IMG/VR virus record: IMGVR_UViG_3300046010_002014
Location: 1-27,363 of that record
Length of the DNA stretch: 27,363 bases
From: a virus
Reading direction: 5' to 3' (one strand)
Positions within the stretch are counted from its first letter, which is position 1; every line of letters begins with the position of its first letter. The notes beneath the pieces are model-generated. The model saw nothing but the letters and a program-made list of their open reading frames with translations, was not told where the DNA came from and did no database searches. Positions 6,027-25,083 of the stretch are shown here, piece by piece. A program made the position numbers and the translations under genes.

Positions 6027-6947
6027 TCAGGTTGTGGGGGTTGTGTCAATAAGCTTTGCGCGAATTAGTGCTAGATCGTTTTCAGTAGGTTTTGAATCAA
6101 CACCGCCGTATTTGAAACTATACCCCGCTAAGCGTCCTTTTGTTAAAGGTTTGCCGGATATTAAAGCCCTACGAAGGGTCGGCATCTGCATTCCATAGTA
6201 ATTGAGTGTTGCAGTAAGACTTGGAAATAAAATGCCGTCAGGCATAACGAATACAGTTTTGCTCATTTTTTCTTTTGCTTCCTCAGTATGTTTACGTCCT
6301 AGCCAGTGCATATGACTACGACCTGCTTCGATGTTTGCGCGAATCTTTAAGCGCCCTTCTTCTGAAACTTTACGCCCCTCTGCTTTTGGTTTGCCGCGTT
6401 GCGTCGCACCAATCTTTGCTTTTGTTTCGTCGGATAACGTTTTACCGTATCGATAGTGATTTTCCCCGGCAGTAGGGGTTCTGTTCTGTCGAATCTTTAA
6501 CCGTGCTTCTTCGGTATGCTTTTTCCCAACACGAGGGTGGTTAAAGTAGTCCGCAGCATAAAACTCTTTAAGAGTTGTAGAAATTTTTTCTTTTTGTTGC
6601 TCTGCCATTACTTTGCCAAAGTTTGGCGTAGTTTCTGGCGGGGCGTTGCGCCAAGGCGCGTCCGCAGAATATCCAGAGTTATAGCACATAGGCTGACCAA
6701 CATGTTGAAGTAGATAAATATCTTCTATCTGTTGAAGAGGCATAGTTTCTGGAACAACCTCAACAATCACAAACTCGAACTTATCTTCACCATATTTGTT
6801 CCACGCTGCTTGCAAATGTTTGCAGTGGTGCCTATTACCGCGAAGTAATTTACGGTGTTGTCTAAAGCGCACTTTCTTGTTTGTTGTGCTGCCTACATAA
6901 AACTTGTTGTTGACTACGTTGATGATTTTGTAAATGACCTGTTCCAT
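6027..6947 (-). CDS. GIY-YIG homing endonuclease with NUMOD3 repeats
   Basis: A 306-aa protein. An N-terminal GIY-YIG nuclease domain has VIYKI at 4-8, FYVGS at 16-20, an Arg-rich helix, and QIED (the metal-binding Glu) near residue 75. Four NUMOD3-type DNA-binding repeats follow (GKKHTEEARLKIR, GKTLSDETKAKIG, GRKVSEEGRLKIR, GRKHTEEAKEKMS), then a C-terminal helix-turn-helix region with FPSLTATLNYYGM and GYSFKY, like NUMOD1/IENR1 modules. I start at the ATG with GGAGGG five bases upstream; a longer frame back to 7040 would run through the capsid terminator and is not credible. It is a mobile gene inserted between the capsid and a tail-side structural gene. Confidence 0.9.
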   Translation of the reverse strand: MEQVIYKIINVVNNKFYVGSTTNKKVRFRQHRKLLRGNRHHCKHLQAAWNKYGEDKFEFVIVEVVPETMPLQQIEDIYLLQHVGQPMCYNSGYSADAPWRNAPPETTPNFGKVMAEQQKEKISTTLKEFYAADYFNHPRVGKKHTEEARLKIRQNRTPTAGENHYRYGKTLSDETKAKIGATQRGKPKAEGRKVSEEGRLKIRANIEAGRSHMHWLGRKHTEEAKEKMSKTVFVMPDGILFPSLTATLNYYGMQMPTLRRALISGKPLTKGRLAGYSFKYGGVDSKPTENDLALIRAKLIDTTPTT

Positions 6948-6975
6948 ATTCCCTCCGTTACAAAGCCATATCCGT

Positions 6976-7004
6976 AATGTACCAAAAGGAACCAACATTG
7001 TCAA
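6976..7004 (-). promoter_or_regulatory. Sigma-70-like promoter for the endonuclease and distal structural genes
   Basis: On the minus strand there is a perfect -35 box TTGACA (6999-7004), a 17-base spacer and a TACATT -10 box (6976-6981, four of six consensus positions). It lies just downstream of the capsid terminator and about 30 bases before the endonuclease start codon. Its position suggests it restarts transcription of the endonuclease and perhaps the structural genes beyond it. Seen directly; activity is inferred. Confidence 0.65.
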
Positions 7005-7011
7005 CAAACAA

Positions 7012-7036
7012 AGAAAAAGCCACCCGAAGGTGGCTT
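7012..7036 (-). terminator. Intrinsic terminator after the major capsid gene
   Basis: On the minus strand, AAGCCACC and GGTGGCTT form a perfect 8-bp stem closed by a TTCG tetraloop with a C-G closing pair, and the 3' arm runs straight into TTTTTCTTT. This is a textbook intrinsic terminator. It ends messages coming from the terminase-to-capsid block, comparable in position to the leaky terminator after the T7 capsid gene. Confidence 0.9.
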
Positions 7037-7069
7037 CCAAATCAAGCTAAGTACTTGATTTTATTGGTA

Positions 7070-7978
7070 TTAGGCTCCTTGGGAACCGTAAATACCCAAC
7101 GGATCGCTCACTCCAAACGAGTACCTTTCTCTCGCTTTATATCTGACATTCCCGGTGTCGAAATCGCCATCCATTGAATTTTGTAACGGTGTACGTACAA
7201 AATGCTTCAGACCATTAGGAACATCAGTCGTAAGGAACCAAGCGTTGGTGTCGGTCAAGAAGTGGTTAACGGTGTAACCTTCAGGAATCGAACCATTGTT
7301 CTTCAACGCGTTGATGTCGTTATCGTTAGTACCGACACGGAGTTCGGTTTCCAACAGGCGTGTTGCCACGAACATCAAAGCAGGAGGAACAATAAGCTTG
7401 CGAGGCTTAGCAGCAATCAACAAACTACGTTCATCAGTCCATGCTGCGATCTGAATCACAGCGTTTTCCAACGACGTTTCGTTGAGGTCCACGCCCGTTG
7501 CGGTCGTGTTGCTGTTAGTACCCCCAGACACAAGCGGGTGAGCCGTTGAGAACAGGGATTGGCCGTCACCATAAGTAACAGCAGCAGACCAACCATTGTT
7601 CAACACAGCAGCAGCTTTAACCTGCTTGGTGTAAGCCATAGCGCGAGCAAGTGCCTTGGTGTAACGAGCAGACAAGCTGTCGTACAGGTTATCTTCAATC
7701 GCTTCTTCAGTGATCGAAAAGCCAAGTGCAATTGTTTCGTGCGTATAGCGGGCGGTCCAAGCTTCTTGCGCGTTGTCATAAGCAATCGCAGCGCCTTCGT
7801 TCTTCACCGGAGCGGCGGAGAAGCCAGACAGCTTGGTTTCCTCTTCAAACGAACGCTCGGAGGTCTCGGTTTCGTAGATCTCTTTGTGCTCTTCGCCGTA
7901 CTTTGCATACTCCAGACCGAACAGTGCGTTCAAGCCGGGGAGAAGCTCTTTCAGTAGTTGTGCGCGTGAAATAGCCAT
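7070..7978 (-). CDS. Major capsid protein
   Basis: A 302-aa protein. The N-terminus has LLKELLPGLNALFG and the early acidic segment EYAKYGEEHKEIYETETSER, followed by FEEETKLSGF and PVKNEGAAIAYDNAQEAWTARY, then ALGFSITEEAIEDNLYDSL. The C-terminal half has KPRKLIVPPALMFVATRLL and GNVRYKARERYSFGVSDPLG. This strand-helix order (N-arm and E-loop region, then a spine helix, then a conserved Arg-Tyr-rich C-terminal segment) fits the HK97-fold capsid proteins of tailed phages with Mu gpT-like or aquatic-podovirus types. Its place after portal and scaffold genes and before a strong terminator supports this. It contains no obvious propeptide cleavage site. Confidence 0.88.
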   Translation of the reverse strand: MAISRAQLLKELLPGLNALFGLEYAKYGEEHKEIYETETSERSFEEETKLSGFSAAPVKNEGAAIAYDNAQEAWTARYTHETIALGFSITEEAIEDNLYDSLSARYTKALARAMAYTKQVKAAAVLNNGWSAAVTYGDGQSLFSTAHPLVSGGTNSNTTATGVDLNETSLENAVIQIAAWTDERSLLIAAKPRKLIVPPALMFVATRLLETELRVGTNDNDINALKNNGSIPEGYTVNHFLTDTNAWFLTTDVPNGLKHFVRTPLQNSMDGDFDTGNVRYKARERYSFGVSDPLGIYGSQGA

Positions 7979-13035: not shown

Positions 13036-14577
13036 CTAACTTAAGTAATATCCACGTTTAGCACCGCGAAAGCCTCTAAAGTACTGGACCTCATCTGGCT
13101 CGTCGCTTGGGAGACGTAAAAAACCCCCATTCCTAAAACGTGCTAATGCTAACGTAGTTGCGTCCACATAGTCATCATGCTCGCCTGCGGGAAAAGCTGC
13201 AATCTCATCAATAAGTTCTTCAGCCCAACGTGTGTTAGGCACCCATACCCGCCCTGACTGTATGATGTCAGACACCGAATTAAGTCTAGTTATCTTGTCG
13301 TTACCTTTACTGGGAGTGAACTCTGACACAGGCACACCCATCCGACGCAACTCTTGATATAGAGAGATACCTGATACCTTCTTTTCTACAATAAGTGCAT
13401 CGGGTTCATACTCTTTATACAACTCAAGCACCCGTTGCTTTAACTGGAAAAACTCCATCCGCGATTTCCACGCGTCTAAGAGGATAATGTTTGTCTGATC
13501 TTCCTCAGTTGTCCACACACCCCACGTTGTACACGCAGAATAGTCCGAACGATTAGTCGTTTCGTACGCCGTATCCCACGACTGAATGATAAAGTTACAG
13601 TTTGGAGGGTCATCTTTCTCCCATACCTTCCACCATTCGCGTTTGACGATGGCACCTTCTTCAGAAGTAGGCTGTTGTTGGTACTGAGCCTGCCATTTGC
13701 TGTTTGGAAGCTCCTCTTTTAGCGCAGAAAGCTCGTCTAAAGACCAAAATTCAGGCCAAAGTGGGTTTCCAGAAGGTAAAATAGCAGGAAATTCGATCAC
13801 TTCCCACTCATCTCCCCCTCTTTGGGCGGCATTTTTAACAACTTGCCCCGTTAAATCCCGCAAACCCCAGCGTGTCATAACAATAACGATGGCTCCCCCA
13901 GGCTGTAGGCGCTGTCTTGGCCCGGATGTGTACCACTCGTACACCTTATCGTAGATTTCTGGGTTAGTTGCAGCTAAGGCAGCTTCTTGTTCCGAGTGCG
14001 GGTCGTCAATAATGAGTAGGTCAGCACCTTTACCCGTAACAGCACCTCCCACACCAATAGCAAAATACTCTCCACCCTTGTTAGTCGCCCACCGGCCAGC
14101 AGCTTTAGAGTCCGCTTGTAGGCCAACTGTTGGAAATATGTCTTTATATACGTCTTGATCGACAAGATTTCGCACCTTTCGTCCAAAACCTACAGATAAT
14201 TCAGCAGTATGGGCAGTTTGAATTACTTTTTTATTTGGAAATTTACCTAAAAACCACGCCGGAAGTAAATAAGAAGCAAACTCACTTTTGGTATGACGAG
14301 GCGGCATATTTATTATTAATCGTTTTGTTTTACCTTCAGCAACTCTTTCAAACGCCGCAGCCATACGTAAATGGTGCCGACCATCTACAAACGTAGGCCA
14401 AACTCGTTTTACAAACCGAATAAATCGTTCTCTACATACTTCTTGTTCTTTTAACTGCTCAAGTTTTTGCAGTCGAATATTTAAATCGCGTAAATCACTT
14501 TCAGGTAATCCAGATATATTATTTAATAATGCAGATAAACTTGCTGGATCTGATTGTTGCGGTATATTAATAGTCAT
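13036..14577 (-). CDS. terL: Terminase large subunit
   Basis: A 513-aa packaging ATPase and nuclease. The ATPase part has a Walker A-like loop MPPRHTKSE at 91-99, Walker B LLIIDDPHS at 187-195 and a coupling motif VMTRW at 233-237. The RNase H-like nuclease part has SWDTA near 335, IVEKK near 398 and HDDYVDA near 470, giving the acidic triad. It cuts concatemeric phage DNA and pumps it through the portal. Its ATG overlaps the preceding stop (ATGA). The first 100 codons and the gene before it are visibly AT-richer than the rest of the operon. Confidence 0.96.
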   Translation of the reverse strand: MTINIPQQSDPASLSALLNNISGLPESDLRDLNIRLQKLEQLKEQEVCRERFIRFVKRVWPTFVDGRHHLRMAAAFERVAEGKTKRLIINMPPRHTKSEFASYLLPAWFLGKFPNKKVIQTAHTAELSVGFGRKVRNLVDQDVYKDIFPTVGLQADSKAAGRWATNKGGEYFAIGVGGAVTGKGADLLIIDDPHSEQEAALAATNPEIYDKVYEWYTSGPRQRLQPGGAIVIVMTRWGLRDLTGQVVKNAAQRGGDEWEVIEFPAILPSGNPLWPEFWSLDELSALKEELPNSKWQAQYQQQPTSEEGAIVKREWWKVWEKDDPPNCNFIIQSWDTAYETTNRSDYSACTTWGVWTTEEDQTNIILLDAWKSRMEFFQLKQRVLELYKEYEPDALIVEKKVSGISLYQELRRMGVPVSEFTPSKGNDKITRLNSVSDIIQSGRVWVPNTRWAEELIDEIAAFPAGEHDDYVDATTLALARFRNGGFLRLPSDEPDEVQYFRGFRGAKRGYYLS

Positions 14578-15233
14578 TCTAATTCATCAATAGAAGCCAT
14601 TACTGGTTTTGCAACACCCAACTCTTCATCTAAATCTGTCGCAGGAATTACTTCTACGTCAGTAGCACCACCTACTAATAAACGTTTAATACGTTCTTTT
14701 ATTTCTGCTTCTAAGTCAGCAGAATTTTTATGAGTAATGGTTATCTCGCTGCGCTCAGTAAATACACCAATATCACTATGCTTACCTAAAAGCTCTAGGG
14801 CTTTAATTTCTATTTTAGTATCCCCACACGTTGCAAGTTCTACTAACTTAGCGGTAATAAATTGACGTGCTTGCACAACATCGGCAAACACTGGGGAGTC
14901 ATACTTATTAATAATAGTTCTTAGGGTTGCGGCTACGCCGCCCTTCATTAATTCTTTCTTTACTTTTCTTGCTGGAAGCACCTTACCAGCTTGCCTGAAT
15001 AACTCTTCGGCTTTGGCTTGGTCATTGGGGTCCATCTCTAGCGGCATGCCCAACTCATGGAGCAGCAACGCCGTATCCCCCGCAACAATCATTTTTTCTT
15101 TTATATGGTCGGGGGTCTCTGAAGAGAGATCAAACGGTATAGGTCTATCTGTGGTGGGTTCTATTTTAATCACGGGAATAAGGGCACCGAGATTGGGATG
15201 GCTGAATGTATATGTAATTAATAATTTTTGCAA
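14574..15233 (-). CDS. Probable terminase small subunit
   Basis: A 219-aa protein in the position where the DNA-recognition subunit lies, overlapping terL by four bases. The middle part is helical (IKEKMIVAGDTALLLHELGM and GGVAATLRTIINKYDSP) and the C-terminal part charged (SADLEAEIKERIKRLLVGG). The visible motifs do not settle the family, so the call rests on position and size. The frame opens with TTG; an AGGAG site lies upstream but is bracketed by a CTCCT that could pair with it. A GTG 19 codons in (VIKIEP) is an alternative start. Codons are AT-rich compared with the portal gene. Confidence 0.65.
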   Translation of the reverse strand: MQKLLITYTFSHPNLGALIPVIKIEPTTDRPIPFDLSSETPDHIKEKMIVAGDTALLLHELGMPLEMDPNDQAKAEELFRQAGKVLPARKVKKELMKGGVAATLRTIINKYDSPVFADVVQARQFITAKLVELATCGDTKIEIKALELLGKHSDIGVFTERSEITITHKNSADLEAEIKERIKRLLVGGATDVEVIPATDLDEELGVAKPVMASIDELE

Positions 15234-15781
15234 GAGGAGGTTGTGACTCCTTACCGGGGGGTGTTTCTATATAAGGGGGTAAGATAATTGTGGTGAAATT
15301 TGAATAGGTAGGGGGGGTAATTTTATTTGGAGTGATGGGATGAGCGGCACAGTATGTATGAGCGTGGCGGGGCCGTCAAAGCCAGTTTGGGGGGGTCGGG
15401 GTACGGTGGTATTACATTATATTTATTTTCTTACGTATAGGGGCGGATTGTGGTACATTCCAACCAAGCCCACCAATGGGCGATCAACGGAAAACCTCCC
15501 GCCAACGCGAAACAACGTCAAAGGGGAGGGGAGAGGGGAGCCTTGCTTTAGGTGGCGATCGATCGCTGTACACTGGTACGGTTAAGGTCAAAGCCTAAAG
15601 GGGTGCACAACGCGACAGGAACGACCGAAATTCCCCCTTCGCAAATAGCGATACGCTAACGAAACGCGCAAGCGTTGATCGGGCCGGATCGAAAGTTGCA
15701 ACCCGTCAAAAAGCGGGATTGGGCGTGTACCAAGCCACTGACCCAAGCAAGAAAACTGTAATCGAAGTACCCGTTGCCAAT

Positions 15782-17870: not shown

Positions 17871-18950
17871 ATGGATGACACCACAGTAACCAAAGACCGC
17901 TACGTATCACTAGCCGAGGCAGCATCCCTCATCGTTTCCGTCCCTGAGAATCGTTTCTGTCTCGTGGGTGAGCCTGGGATTGGCAAGTCCTCAATCCTCA
18001 AACCCTTAGCGCAACTGCTACCTGCCGAGGAGTATGAGTTCACCTATGTCGATGTGCCCTCCCTAGAACTTGGCGATACAGCTATACCCGTCCCCAACAA
18101 AGAGTCAAAAATCCTCGAATACCTACCCAATGGTAGGTTCAAACTGCATACCAACAAGAAGGTAGTCATCTGCCTCGATGAGTTTGGTAAGGGTGCAGAC
18201 CCTGTGAAGAACATGCTACATCCACTGCTAGAAGAGAATGCCCCTCGCCTTGCAGACCGACCCCTACCCGAAGGATCCCTCGTATTCCTAACAGGTAACT
18301 TCCGCACCGATGGTGTAGGTGACAACCTCAAGGCGCATACCATTCAGCGTATATCAGAGGTAAAGGTACGCAAGCCCGATGCCGATGAGTGGCTACTGTG
18401 GGCAGCAGCAAACAACATAGCAAGAGAGGTGCGTGCATGGGTCAAGATGTTCCCCGACTCGCTAGCATCCTACCGAGACCCTGGGCAGGGTAGCAACCCA
18501 TACATCTTCAACCCTCGCAAGCCCACCATGTCTGCTGTCTCACCGCGCACGCTGTCTCGTGCCTCTAACATCGTGCATAGACGCAAGCAGTTGACACCCA
18601 ACGCAGTGCATGCCGCACTTGCAGGTACAGCAGGTGATGCCTTCGCGGATTCGTTCGCGGCGTATTTGCAGTTCTCGGATCAACTCCCTCCGATGGAGAC
18701 ACTAGTCACTAACCCAACCGCTGCACGAGTGCCCACCGAGTCAGGTGCTCAAGCCATACTCGTCTACGGCATGATCGACATGCTGAGCAAGGAGACCGTG
18801 GATCCCTTCATGCAGTACGTGGTGCGCCTCAACCCTGACTGGACTGCATGCTTCTGCATATCAGTAGCTAAAGACCCAGACAAGCAACACATTGCGTTCA
18901 GTAACCCTCGGTTCAGTGCGTGGTGTGCCGAGAACCAAGACTTACTCTAA
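17871..18950 (+). CDS. MoxR-like AAA+ ATPase
   Basis: A 359-aa ATPase. Walker A GEPGIGKS at 33-40, Walker B VVICLDEFG at 98-106, sensor 1 TGN at 141-143 and an IQRI arginine near 160 are present, as in MoxR/NorQ/CbbQ-type AAA+ proteins (AAA_5). Such enzymes remodel or insert cofactors into partner proteins and usually act with a vWA protein, and one lies two genes downstream. AAGGAG lies six bases before the ATG. In related phages and mobile elements this type is often annotated CobS. The C-terminal 150 residues carry no motif I recognise. Confidence 0.9.
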   Translation: MDDTTVTKDRYVSLAEAASLIVSVPENRFCLVGEPGIGKSSILKPLAQLLPAEEYEFTYVDVPSLELGDTAIPVPNKESKILEYLPNGRFKLHTNKKVVICLDEFGKGADPVKNMLHPLLEENAPRLADRPLPEGSLVFLTGNFRTDGVGDNLKAHTIQRISEVKVRKPDADEWLLWAAANNIAREVRAWVKMFPDSLASYRDPGQGSNPYIFNPRKPTMSAVSPRTLSRASNIVHRRKQLTPNAVHAALAGTAGDAFADSFAAYLQFSDQLPPMETLVTNPTAARVPTESGAQAILVYGMIDMLSKETVDPFMQYVVRLNPDWTACFCISVAKDPDKQHIAFSNPRFSAWCAENQDLL

Positions 18951-18971: not shown

Positions 18972-19838
18972 ATGACTATCCTAGCTAACGCAGTACTTGT
19001 CGAACTCAACATCTCAACGTGGACTGCATATAAGTTGGACAAGCAGCAATCCGCGAAGATCGTTGCAGATAACAACGCAACCGAGAGCGATGCCGCTCGC
19101 GTCAACAAGAACCTCATGGCAGGTACATCCCTGCTCAAGAACATCAATGACTACGTTGCGAAGGTTCGCGTGTGGCACATAGCGCAGACGCTGCCGTGGG
19201 CAGAGAAGGGTCCGAGACTACTACCGATGAAGAACTTCTTTGCCTACAAGCAGCAACTCAACCAGATGGAAGGGAACGTCTCCGCACTGGTGCGGACATT
19301 CGTCGATGCTTATCCTAACCTCGTATCCGTAGCAGCATTCAAGACCGGTGGGTTTTTCAACCGTGATGACTACCCGTCAGTTGATGAGGTCTCTCGCAAG
19401 TTCAGCTTCAGGTATGCCTTCACCCCTGTGCCACAAGCAGGACACTTCATACTCGACACACACAACGAGGTGATGCAAGAGCTAGCTACAAACTACGAGG
19501 CCGAGGCTAACCGCAGGATAGGTGAAGCGATGAAGGATGCGTGGGGTAGGTTGCACGAGACACTGAAGCACCTCTCAGATCGCATGACCGATGCACCTGC
19601 TGAGCAAGAAGATAAGAAGAAGCGGTATCACGACAGCATGTTGACTAATGCACACGAGCTATGTGCACTGCTTACTGCGTTCAACATCACATCAGATCCT
19701 AACTTGGAACAAGCACGGCAGGACTTGGAGCGCACGCTGTCAGGGGTGAGGATAGACGACATCAAGGAGAGTGCCTCTGTCCGCAAGGAGATCAAGACCA
19801 AGGTAGACAGCATCATCAGTTCATACGAGTGGCTTTAA
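18972..19838 (+). CDS. Middle protein of the AAA+/vWA module
   Basis: A 288-aa protein with no motif of its own that I can name. It has an early SxYKLDKQ region, a central AFKTGGFFNRDDYP and FRYAFTPVPQAGHF, and a C-terminal helical coiled-coil half (EAEANRRIGEAMKDAWGRL, then ERTLSGVRIDDIKESASV). Size and place between ATPase and vWA genes recall DUF3150-type proteins seen in phages and integrative elements (recollection). It follows the ATPase with 21 bases and AAGGAG. It may be an adaptor or substrate of the ATPase (inference). Confidence 0.8.
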   Translation: MTILANAVLVELNISTWTAYKLDKQQSAKIVADNNATESDAARVNKNLMAGTSLLKNINDYVAKVRVWHIAQTLPWAEKGPRLLPMKNFFAYKQQLNQMEGNVSALVRTFVDAYPNLVSVAAFKTGGFFNRDDYPSVDEVSRKFSFRYAFTPVPQAGHFILDTHNEVMQELATNYEAEANRRIGEAMKDAWGRLHETLKHLSDRMTDAPAEQEDKKKRYHDSMLTNAHELCALLTAFNITSDPNLEQARQDLERTLSGVRIDDIKESASVRKEIKTKVDSIISSYEWL

Positions 19839-19852
19839 TAACAGGAGGCTAT

Positions 19853-21115
19853 ATGCAAGCAACGCAAGCACTGGCACTAACCACTGAGCAGAGGCTAGCT
19901 GCACAGTCAAGGCGCATGACCAAGGTCAACATCAGCATCATGCGTGAGGATAGGTTCGCACTGTGGTCTGGGTTCTTATCACTGGGTGAGATACGCATAC
20001 TGGACAAGCAGTTCACTGCAAGGACCGATGGGCTTAACGAGGAGTACTCACTGCCATTCCTTGAGTCTCTTAGCGATAAGGAGATCGCCTTCGTCAGGTT
20101 GCACGAGATGCTGCACAAAGCCTTCAAGCACCTCACTATCTACAAGAAGCTATACAAGGAAGATGCCGAGTGTGCTAACAAGGCATGCGACTACCTCATC
20201 AACTACCTGCTGTGGGATACGGACAAGCAAGGGGTAGTCATCAAGATGCCCAAGATCGCACTGTTCGATCACAAGTATAAGGGTATGAACAGCAAGCAGA
20301 TCTATGACTTGCTACGCAAGCAGAAGCAAGGACAAGGACAAGGCACACCACAGCAGGGGCAGGGGCAACCTAGCCAAGGCAACCAACCTAGTATGGATGA
20401 GCATGACTGGGATGCAGCGAACGCTAGGAGTGAAGAGGATAAGGAGAAGCTAGAAGAGCAGATCAACACTGCCATACGCCAAGGCATGATCGCACACAAC
20501 AAGAAGAAGGGTAATACAAGCGGCGACCTCTATCGACAGCTACAAGAGTTGCTTGCTCCCCAAGTTGATTGGCGCGAGCAGTTGCGGTTCTTTATCAAGC
20601 AAGCGTGTCCAGACAAGACGCGCACCTCGTGGCGCAGGCTCAACCGTCGCATGCTTGAGCATGACATCTACATGCCTGTGCTGATCGGTGAGCAGATGAA
20701 GGACTTGGTCATTGCTGTGGATACATCAGGTTCTATTGGTGATAAGGAGCTAGTTGCATTCCTGACTGAGATCCAGTCTATCTGTGAGGAGGTACGACCA
20801 AGCAACCTGCACCTGCTCTACTGGGACACACGCATCGCTAATCACGAGACATATACCGACAGCAACCTTGAGCTACTGTCATCATCAACTAGGCCCAAGG
20901 GTGGGGGCGGCACTAGCCCTAGCTGCATCGCTAAGTATATGAAGGAGAAGCACATCGATGCTGAACTATGTATTGTGTTTACCGATGGTTATGTCGGCAG
21001 TGATTGGGGTGGTCCGGCAGAAGATTGGGTATCACCTGTCCTGTGGGCAATTGCAGATAACGCGCAAGCTGTTCCAGCTTTTGGGTCAGCTATACATGTC
21101 ACAGTTAATAAGTAA
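19853..21115 (+). CDS. Metallopeptidase-like/vWA protein (DUF2201 type)
   Basis: A 420-aa protein. The N-terminal part holds HEMLH (84-88), a zinc metallopeptidase-like HExxH. A Gln/Gly-rich linker (about 157-178) follows, then a C-terminal von Willebrand factor A domain with the metal site DTSGS (290-294), a GGGGTSP Thr and FTDGY (376-380). This order is typical of the DUF2201 family, partner of MoxR ATPases. I start at ATG 19853 because AGGAGG lies five bases upstream; a GTG at 19829 in the same frame overlaps the preceding gene. The linker is repetitive at DNA level (CAAGGA repeats). Confidence 0.9.
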   Translation: MQATQALALTTEQRLAAQSRRMTKVNISIMREDRFALWSGFLSLGEIRILDKQFTARTDGLNEEYSLPFLESLSDKEIAFVRLHEMLHKAFKHLTIYKKLYKEDAECANKACDYLINYLLWDTDKQGVVIKMPKIALFDHKYKGMNSKQIYDLLRKQKQGQGQGTPQQGQGQPSQGNQPSMDEHDWDAANARSEEDKEKLEEQINTAIRQGMIAHNKKKGNTSGDLYRQLQELLAPQVDWREQLRFFIKQACPDKTRTSWRRLNRRMLEHDIYMPVLIGEQMKDLVIAVDTSGSIGDKELVAFLTEIQSICEEVRPSNLHLLYWDTRIANHETYTDSNLELLSSSTRPKGGGGTSPSCIAKYMKEKHIDAELCIVFTDGYVGSDWGGPAEDWVSPVLWAIADNAQAVPAFGSAIHVTVNK

Positions 21116-23053: not shown

Positions 23054-23818
23054 ATGGCTACAAAGAAAGTAACAGAAGATACGATCCAAATCATTGAGAT
23101 GGAAACACAGACGGTCACGTTCCACATCGTAGGAACTACACCTAAGATTTGTAATCGTATGCCTGAGAAAGCATGGCAACAGTTGCTGCTTCCCTCCGGT
23201 CGCAAGACTGCTGCTGAGAAGGCAGGATCAATGAAGCACGATCCGTTGGTTGAGTATCGCTCATCGCCTTACCGCATGTCGTCAGGTGCTACAACCGAGT
23301 TAGCTGTTCTTGCTACGCAGTTCAAAGGTGCGCTACGTAATGCTGCGTTGGATATGCCAGGAGCTAAGAAGTCTCAGATCGGTCGGCTGACTTATGTAGA
23401 AGGTGAGCGCATTGAGTTGTATGGTATCCCTAAGATCTTTTCAAGTATCACTCGATCAGCAGACATCAACAAAACCCCTGACGTTCGTACTCGTGCCATC
23501 TTACCGAAGTGGGCGTGCAAGGTTGATATAACTTATGTGCGTCCAGTGTTGAACCATACCGTTATCTCTAATCTCTTCGCTACAGCAGGTATTACGATGG
23601 GTGTAGGTGATTGGAGACCTGAGAAAGGTTCAGGTAACTACGGTCGTTGGAAGATTGTGGATGCCGATGATCCTGAGTTCTTAGAGATTATCAAGAGCGG
23701 TGGGCGTGATGCACAGCTTGAGGCACTTGAGAATCCTGAAGCATACGACGATGAGACCGAGGAGCTATTGTCTTGGTTCAATGCCGAGACCAAGCGCCGT
23801 GGATTGAAGGTAGCCTGA
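23054..23818 (+). CDS. Conserved phage protein with RAMP/Cas7-like features
   Basis: A 254-aa protein of a phage family I have met without a function. It has VTFHIVGTTPKICNRM (residues 21-36), LAVLATQFKGALRNAALD (83-100) and, near the C-terminal third, GVGDWRPEKGSGNYGRW (183-199). The phrase FKGALRNA resembles the conserved 'GSSLKGxLR' helix, and GVGDWRPEKGSGNYG the glycine-rich loop, of RAMP proteins (Cas5/Cas7 types). The resemblance is by eye; no CRISPR array is in the window. Alternatives are a recombination or single-strand-binding protein. Neighbouring 153-aa gene is its usual companion. Confidence 0.78.
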   Translation: MATKKVTEDTIQIIEMETQTVTFHIVGTTPKICNRMPEKAWQQLLLPSGRKTAAEKAGSMKHDPLVEYRSSPYRMSSGATTELAVLATQFKGALRNAALDMPGAKKSQIGRLTYVEGERIELYGIPKIFSSITRSADINKTPDVRTRAILPKWACKVDITYVRPVLNHTVISNLFATAGITMGVGDWRPEKGSGNYGRWKIVDADDPEFLEIIKSGGRDAQLEALENPEAYDDETEELLSWFNAETKRRGLKVA

Positions 23819-23819
23819 T

Positions 23820-24281
23820 ATGGATAGAGCCGCAATCGCTAAGAGGTTAGAAGAGATTGCGGCCCTCCACGGAGGGTCGCTTACACCCGACATCGTAGTA
23901 GCTGATGCTAAGAATCCAGGTAGTCCTCTGCATGAATACTTCGATTGGGACAAAGAGTCAGCATCGTATAAACATTGGTTAGACACTGCACGTAACCTGA
24001 TCGCCTCTGTTCGGGTTGTCATAACGACAGAGAAGGTTGTTATCAAAGCACCTGTGTACTTGAGAGATCCTAGCAAGAAGGGTAATGAGCAGGGCTACAC
24101 CACACTGACTAAAGTTCGCAGTGATCGGTCTATGGCAGCAGAAGTTATTAACCACGAGGTCGCTCTGATTATTGGTGCATTACGTCGAGCCAAGAACGTA
24201 GCGCAAGCCCTTGATATGGTGGATGAGATGGAGAACCTACTCACTCAGGTCTTGGCACTAAGAAGTAAGGTGGAAACTTAG
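23820..24281 (+). CDS. Conserved companion of the 254-aa protein
   Basis: A 153-aa protein: an N-terminal helix (IAKRLEEIAALHGGSLTPD), DxKNPGSPLHEYFDWD, then KHWLDTARNLIASVRVVITT and a C-terminal charged coiled-coil. The 'GGSLTPD..VADAxNPxSPLHxxFxWD' pattern recurs as a phage protein next to relatives of its neighbour, suggesting a shared function. It starts two bases after the 254-aa stop. The pentanucleotide array begins immediately after its stop codon. Confidence 0.8.
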   Translation: MDRAAIAKRLEEIAALHGGSLTPDIVVADAKNPGSPLHEYFDWDKESASYKHWLDTARNLIASVRVVITTEKVVIKAPVYLRDPSKKGNEQGYTTLTKVRSDRSMAAEVINHEVALIIGALRRAKNVAQALDMVDEMENLLTQVLALRSKVET

Positions 24282-24864
24282 GCAGGTCTGGTGTTGTACG
24301 GCATGACTCGGTGGGGTTGGGTAGGGTGGCATTTGGCAGGTCTGGTTGGGAACATTAGTTTCGGCAAGGTAAATATGGTGCGGTTCGGCAGGTGAGGTTC
24401 GGAGACGCATGGTCCTATGAGGTTGGGATTTTTTTGGTAACGCAGGTCAGGCGTGGCGTGGCGTTATGAGGTATGGAGGGATGCGTTTAGGCGTGGCAGG
24501 TATTGCAAGGTGGGGTCGGGATTGACGCGGTTGGGTCTGGCAGGTCCGGTGGGGTCGGGATAGGTGCGGTATGGTTCGGCATGGATCGGCAGGTAGGGTT
24601 CGGTTCGGCAGAGTGAGATCCGGTCTGGTATGGCAGGGCAGGTATTGCAAGGTGTGATGGGGCCTGGTGCGATCAGGTGCGTATAGGTTGGGCAGGTTTC
24701 GCATGGAACGGATGGGTATTACATGGTTCGGTTCGGCAGGTCTGGTCTTGTGCGAATAGGTTGGGAGCGGTGTTTGAGGTGTGGTCGAGCATGGTACGGC
24801 AGGTTAGGTGAGATCGGGATAGGTGTCTTATGACAATTCTGGCAGGTAATTCATAGGAGGTTGT
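24282..24864 (+). repeat. Degenerate period-5 G-rich repeat array
   Basis: About 560 bases with no credible gene, in which a pentamer of form NGGYN (mostly TGGTN, CGGCA, AGGTN) recurs with occasional phase shifts, roughly 110 units. Larger words are reused: GGCAGGT occurs eleven times, and GGCAGGTATTGCAAGGT occurs twice (24495-24511, 24637-24653). The plus strand is very G-rich and C-poor. A run of seven T sits at 24429-24435. The last 25 bases hold the ribosome site of the next gene. Not a microsatellite of perfect copies, and not codon-periodic. Confidence 0.85.
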
Positions 24865-25083
24865 ATGGAAGATTTTGAAGCGGAACGTGAGTGGGCAAGG
24901 GAGCAGTTCATAGCGGAACTTAGAGATGATTTTGCTATGTCAGCAATCACAGGGATCCTTGCAGGTAAGTGGGGGCAGATGCCGCAGTACACACCCGAAG
25001 CAGCATTTGCTGACTTTGCTTACCGAATAGCAGACGAGATGATTAAACGGAGAGAACAGTATGTCGGCACTAAATCAAAATAA
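24865..25083 (+). CDS. Small conserved phage protein
   Basis: A 72-aa acidic protein: AREQFIAELRDDFAMSAITG, QYTPEAAFADFAYRIADEM, then IKRREQYVGTKSK. The 'AMxAxxG.L...PE..A..AY.IADxM' pattern is common in small phage proteins of unknown role. AGGAGG lies five bases before the ATG, and it is the first gene after the repeat array. The next start lies 23 bases before its stop. Confidence 0.8.
   Translation: MEDFEAEREWAREQFIAELRDDFAMSAITGILAGKWGQMPQYTPEAAFADFAYRIADEMIKRREQYVGTKSK

Follow-up and report, generated by a model that had tools for sequence, protein, structure and literature searches.

The window, the whole stretch of DNA that was analysed, is an entire virus record of 27,363 bases and is probably a fragment. 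Terminase, portal and head genes lie on the minus strand, and the other genes lie on the plus strand. The locus of interest, all on the plus strand, consists of three successive elements. (i) The gene here called vipr (23054–23818) encodes a 254-aa RAMP-fold protein predicted to bind guide RNA. (ii) A vap-like partner gene (23820–24281) encodes a 153-aa protein of phrog_15946, for which 47 homologues were aligned. (iii) An array of GGYNN cassettes punctuated by GGCA follows (24281–24847) and closes with a terminal GGCAGGT at 24841–24847. The next gene (24865–25083; 72 aa) forms the downstream border, its start codon lying 17 bases past that last word. An initial annotation had placed the array at 24282–24840, in an exact intergenic slot. 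The slot does start at the upstream stop codon, but its limits are better stated as 24281–24847, because the first base of the array is the last base of that codon and the final GGCAGGT ends at 24847.

The array is built on a five-base lattice. Lag-5 GG–GG pairs number 55, against 19.8 expected from 1000 shuffles that preserve dinucleotides (z 8.9; no shuffle reaches the count), and Fourier power at period 4.9 is 16.4, against 0.7 in shuffles (z 38.7). There is no Fourier peak at exactly 5.0. Both the mean period of 4.9 and the apparent phase jumps arise because each cassette opens with a 4-base GGCA before its 5-base GGYNN units; the jumps are the borders of cassettes. The initial annotation was thus right about the periodic signal and the jumps, and equally about the 11 copies of GGCAGGT, the G-rich, C-poor strand bias (239 G, 77 C) and the non-coding nature of the interval, in which no open frame crosses the array and stops occur in 6 of 6 frames. 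Its account of larger recurring words was partly overstated: GGGGTCGGG is found twice, ATCGGGAT, said to recur several times, is found once, and TCGGGAT three times. No exact repeat is longer than an 18-mer, which lies at 24495 and 24637. Over 1129 units, position 1 is G at a frequency of 0.86, position 2 is G at 0.79 and position 3 is T or C at 0.93, whereas positions 4 and 5 are near random, with entropies of 1.93 and 1.98 bits. Within cassette families, NN is not more conserved than GGY (P 0.34). A covarying structured RNA, one of the roles first suggested, finds no support, as the array folds no better than shuffled sequence (z 0.37) and an Rfam search of it returned zero family matches. 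A promoter and terminator scan gave fewer matches than in shuffles and none on the plus strand, and megablast against phages gave no match.

Individual cassettes can be read as series of NN pairs. The first (24281–24334) reads CT-GT-AC-AT-TC-GG-TG-AG-GG-TT; the second (24335–24386) has irregular units. A pair follows at 24387–24494, with a degenerate internal boundary where CGCAGG at 24441 replaces GGCAGG; the family of its second member also occurs in five related contigs (L003, L004, L006, L013 and L015). The cassette at 24495–24538 (AT-AA-GG-CG-TT-GC-TG-CT) belongs to a family present in L003 and L004. That at 24539–24587 reads CC-GG-CG-TA-GC-AT-TC-AT-TC, and that at 24588–24636, shared with L015, reads AG-TC-TC-AG-GA-CC-CT-AT. 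The next (24637–24690; AT-AA-GT-GG-CT-GC-CA-GC-TA-TG) recurs in L002, L003 and L015. It is followed by TT-AT-AC-TG-AT-AT-TC-TC (24691–24734) and by CT-CT-GC-TA-TG-GC-GT-GA-GT-CG-AT-AC (24735–24797), the latter also in L002 and L015. The last cassette (24798–24840; TA-GA-CG-TA-GT-AT-AA-CT) is the sole family found in 15 of 15 phages.

These relatives come from a search with the 153-aa upstream gene, which yielded 14 further virus contigs. An array of the same kind stands directly after the vap-like gene in all 14, in the same slot; neither this result nor the excess of period 5 over shuffles refutes the periodic array of the initial annotation, which had named both as refuting checks. These arrays are patchworks drawn from about 70 cassette families, in which recurring cassettes vary in number and order. 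Cassettes typically measure 43–68 bases, mostly 44, 49, 54, 59 or 64 (4 + 5n), and have been shuffled, duplicated and lost between relatives. The association also holds when the search starts from DNA alone. A pattern requiring GGCAGGYNNGG twice found at least 120 stretches. Among the stretches listed, 67 are strongly periodic, and 58 of these lie with a homologue of vipr, vap or both; among the non-periodic loci listed the figure is 1 of 42 (Fisher P 5e-20). Lattice loci carry vipr or vap far more often, and the array and the two genes therefore form one module, which is found in AT-rich and GC-rich phages alike. The vap-like gene, a conserved partner, adjoins vipr in most array loci. Two other repeats were noted during this survey. 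At L097:5950–6374, on the minus strand, the pattern recurs six times, spaced by exactly 72 bases and with neither vipr nor vap, a different kind of repeat; L080:3500–4400 is a long GG-rich stretch with many GGCAGG words and no clean five-base lattice.

The 254-aa protein connects the module to a described system. A profile of its 66 homologues, all 66 of which are assigned to phrog_4652, matches PDB 36pp, the 'SUSP1 Vipr protein', at E 1.8e-18; this is the one solved protein that the profile matches significantly. Its AlphaFold model has a pLDDT of 89.5, and the Foldseek matches of the model in the PDB, among those listed, are Csm3/Cas7-type CRISPR subunits, with E from 2e-6. The 153-aa partner, which may play an assisting part, has no significant match in a fold search of the PDB. 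A 2026 preprint describes Viral Interference Programmable Repeat (VIPR) systems, in which phages encode a RAMP protein together with an accessory gene and with guide RNAs (vrRNAs) that alternate GGY and NN (bioRxiv 2026.04.26.720920; PMC13142463). In the same account the NN pairs recognize DNA with one base skipped between pairs (bioRxiv 2026.04.26.720920).

The period-5 array almost certainly holds the guide RNAs of a VIPR system carried by a phage. This assignment is made because of the Vipr profile match, the RAMP fold, the GGY/NN units, the vipr/vap association and the decoded targets described below. It also bears out the suggestion that the array is linked to a protein working in five-base steps, which is probably correct, with Vipr as that protein. 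The following mechanism is proposed. (i) The array would be transcribed on the plus strand together with vipr and the vap-like gene. (ii) Vipr would coat the RNA, one subunit for each five-base GGYNN unit, with GGY serving as a scaffold held by the protein and NN being read out. (iii) A cassette between two GGCA would constitute one guide of about 8–12 NN pairs, GGCA marking the guide border. (iv) The guide would recognize DNA of the form NNxNNxNN, one target base being skipped between pairs. (v) The complex would most likely silence genes of competing phages. Three parts of this scheme come from the VIPR preprint (bioRxiv 2026.04.26.720920), namely the binding of guides, the skipping of one base and the repression of transcription.

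The closest described counterpart is the type II system of Escherichia phage SUSP1 (PDB 36pp; NC_028808; bioRxiv 2026.04.26.720920). It shares with the present locus a phage-borne RAMP-fold Vipr immediately followed by a small partner gene, as well as alternating GGY/NN guide RNAs and the one-skipped-base target rule. The arrangement of the guides is different. SUSP1 is described in the preprint as having four separate vrRNAs of about 100 nt with a conserved 3' tail, whereas the cassettes here run head to tail, tail-less, with only GGCA between them. The structured nature of that type II tail likewise has no equivalent in the window, where cassettes abut and the fold z is at shuffle level. The window's GGY scaffold is looser than that of SUSP1, and its partner shows no detectable sequence relation to the ORF that adjoins SUSP1 vipr, which is taken as vap1 because of its position. 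The architecture may correspond to the 'staggered arrays with overlapping vrRNAs' of the preprint (fig. S18; bioRxiv 2026.04.26.720920). Of the defining features of VIPR, a RAMP-family Vipr, non-coding tandem GGY/NN units and one-base-skip targets with the skip at wobble positions are all found here. Carriage by a phage or prophage is evident from the terminase, portal and head genes of the record, and cassettes contain 8–12 five-base units, the shortest falling slightly below the lower end of the roughly 9–16 per guide described. Class 1 CRISPR effector RAMPs such as Csm3 and Cas7 share the fold and RNA-guided recognition with periodically interrupted pairing, but the guide information in the window consists of gapped dinucleotides, not a contiguous spacer. 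CRISPR-Cas itself was considered and rejected: there are no identical direct repeats, only the short GGCAGG word recurs, and the five-base lattice runs throughout. No cas genes were seen among the scanned window proteins.

The module is also present in two cultivated phages, which a search with the protein alone brought up. Both Mycobacterium phage Saal (genes 51–52) and Gordonia phage ODay (genes 19–20) have a Vipr of this family (E 3.5e-69 and 4.6e-72, respectively) and a partner of the same 153-aa-type family (E 2e-35 and 2e-39), with a GGCAGG-punctuated pentamer array nearby. Unlike the window they are GC-rich, and the array precedes vipr in Saal and lies between vipr and its partner in ODay.

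The skip rule was examined across arrays. The periodic arrays of 66 loci contain 702 nine-unit stretches, 700 of which were decoded at each skip from 0 to 3 bases. The comparison was with about 3.4 million bases of other sequence in which arrays were masked; an earlier search had enriched this sequence for sak4 phages, but it served equally for the skip controls. Exact 18-base matches numbered 8 with a skip of one base and 0, 0 and 0 with skips of 0, 2 and 3. Matches at 17 of 18 bases numbered 22 with the one-base skip, against 5, 7 and 3. The exact one-skip matches come from two other loci, L112 and L118, each with a Vipr homologue. In six contigs a guide of L112, which reads Y-G-E-S-N-S-I-R-Y, matches the DUF669 gene that immediately follows sak4; L118 guide stretches read (D-F-)D-L-G-L-T-G-F and match ParB/methylase genes. 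The two arrays are unrelated, and they match these DUF669 and ParB/methylase genes in the same rival phages. When guides were compared with sibling phages and flanking loci only, the signal was not above that of shuffled guides. One 15-of-16 guide match within the window was dropped, the rest of the guide failing to extend it.

The guide common to all 15 phages (24798–24840) exists in two versions, clusters 1 and 9, whose GGY scaffolds differ while the NN series is the same; one version adds CA. Decoded with a one-base skip it gives TAxGAxCGxTAxGTxATxAAxCT, the motif Y-D-R-Y-V-I-K-L of Sak4-like genes, which act in recombination. A search of IMG/VR with its 18-base pattern, TANGANCGNTANGTNATNAANCTNCA, gives at least 120 exact matches. 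The matches listed all fall in Sak4-like genes, 118 of 120 by a strict motif test and the other two, with the same motif or a variant, by inspection. They lie at HTDIKRFDSPEHxPYDRYVIKL[HQ] of one phage gene family, and the skipped base coincides with the codon wobble position. In GTDB genomes the same pattern has 99 exact matches, against about 7 expected by chance (257 billion bases, uniform composition; our own estimate), and 97–98 of the 99 fall in Sak4-like genes. These are mostly in Rhodobacteraceae and other Alphaproteobacteria. A member of the target family is assigned to Pfam AAA_24 and PHROG 124, 'Sak4-like ssDNA annealing protein'. On this sequence evidence the universal guide is predicted to target the sak4-like ssDNA-annealing gene of other phages, the silencing of which would harm these rivals. 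No sak4 was seen in the examined sequence of the window phage's longer relatives. In L118 a VIPR array occurs together with a sak4 gene, and this gene agrees with the guide of the window in 17 of 18 bases (L118:127–1188, L118:11001–11051); VIPR phages may accordingly be targets of one another.

Certain findings count against parts of this interpretation. The GGY scaffold is looser than in published clades, with G at position 2 in just 0.79 of units. The missing 3' tail, the lack of excess folding and the unrelated partner protein, all noted above, weigh on the same side. Only a single tested guide of the phage group has a recognizable target: matched IMG/VR scans with four others gave 0, 1, 1 and 3 matches, at or near chance. 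Of the last three, two share one sequence and fall outside the frame that would be expected. The two single matches, at chance level, are those of the cassettes at 24637–24690 and 24735–24797. Moreover, the at least 120 viral matches represent one gene family and so one event. The lone target and the single family are also what would be expected if the array were VIPR but its sak4 match were an accident of an abundant, conserved protein motif. That explanation is improbable. With about one chance match seen per pattern, a family of more than 100 should arise in roughly 1% of cases, and fewer given the wobble register (our own estimate); the universal cassette alone is kept in 15 of 15 phages; and independent arrays match the adjacent DUF669 gene and the ParB/methylase gene in the same phages.

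Far weaker is the case for a non-coding DNA element, such as a replication origin or recombination hotspot where a phage protein binds G-rich iterons. Recombinases load readily on G/T-rich DNA, and the extreme strand bias and regular spacing would suit such an element. Iterons, however, need neither near-random positions 4–5 between cassettes nor their retention within families. The cumulative GC-skew minimum of the window, a check proposed for the origin reading, lies near 15 kb, away from the array; a RAMP protein accompanies the array in phages that are not related to one another; and decoded sequences fit rival phage genes solely with the one-base skip. This reading is very improbable, and the origin, recombination-site and helix-face DNA-binding roles offered initially are left unsupported. 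Least credible is a functionless degenerate pentamer satellite spread by slippage and recombination beside phage genes, which would explain the shuffling, duplication and loss of cassettes but not the strict vipr/vap association, the guides kept under different scaffolds in clusters 1 and 9, or the exact target matches.

The findings lend independent support to the VIPR code, on the strength of DNA alone and in phages that differ from those studied: exact targets are predicted when one base is skipped, and none under the other rules. VIPR was already known, though very recently; the new elements here are the compact arrangement of shuffled cassettes and the concrete target of the conserved guide. 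The locus could, more tentatively, exemplify a form of VIPR with compact tail-less arrays, GGCA guide boundaries and ready-made guides traded by recombination, its shared libraries directed against near-universal rival motifs (Sak4, DUF669, ParB/methylase); we consider this a plausible proposal that falls somewhat short of even odds. If it is true, silent mutations cannot provide escape from libraries aimed at such motifs. Cassette-wise exchange of guides between phages bears on how libraries evolve without CRISPR-type acquisition. Sak4 provides a testable target for a VIPR clade outside the main-text work of the preprint (bioRxiv 2026.04.26.720920), and Saal and ODay, which carry the same gene pair and an array, are cultivable.

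Further observations concern the remainder of the window. The minus-strand terminase (13036–14577) is nearest to those of aquatic phages, with 58% for DSL-LC04 of Gammaproteobacteria and 51–53% for Pelagibacter phages; the decoded targets point to alphaproteobacterial prophages. At about 15233–15340 the structural genes of the minus strand give way to plus-strand genes, at the same place as the window's minimum of cumulative GC skew, and this region is more likely than the array to be a divergent control or origin region. On the plus strand, a MoxR-like AAA ATPase (17871–18950) and a DUF2201 VWA/metallopeptidase-like protein (19829–21115) flank a 288-aa protein with no family assigned. A homing endonuclease gene (6027–7040, minus strand; phrog_314, with GIY-YIG family matches) adjoins the major head protein gene at 7070–7978.
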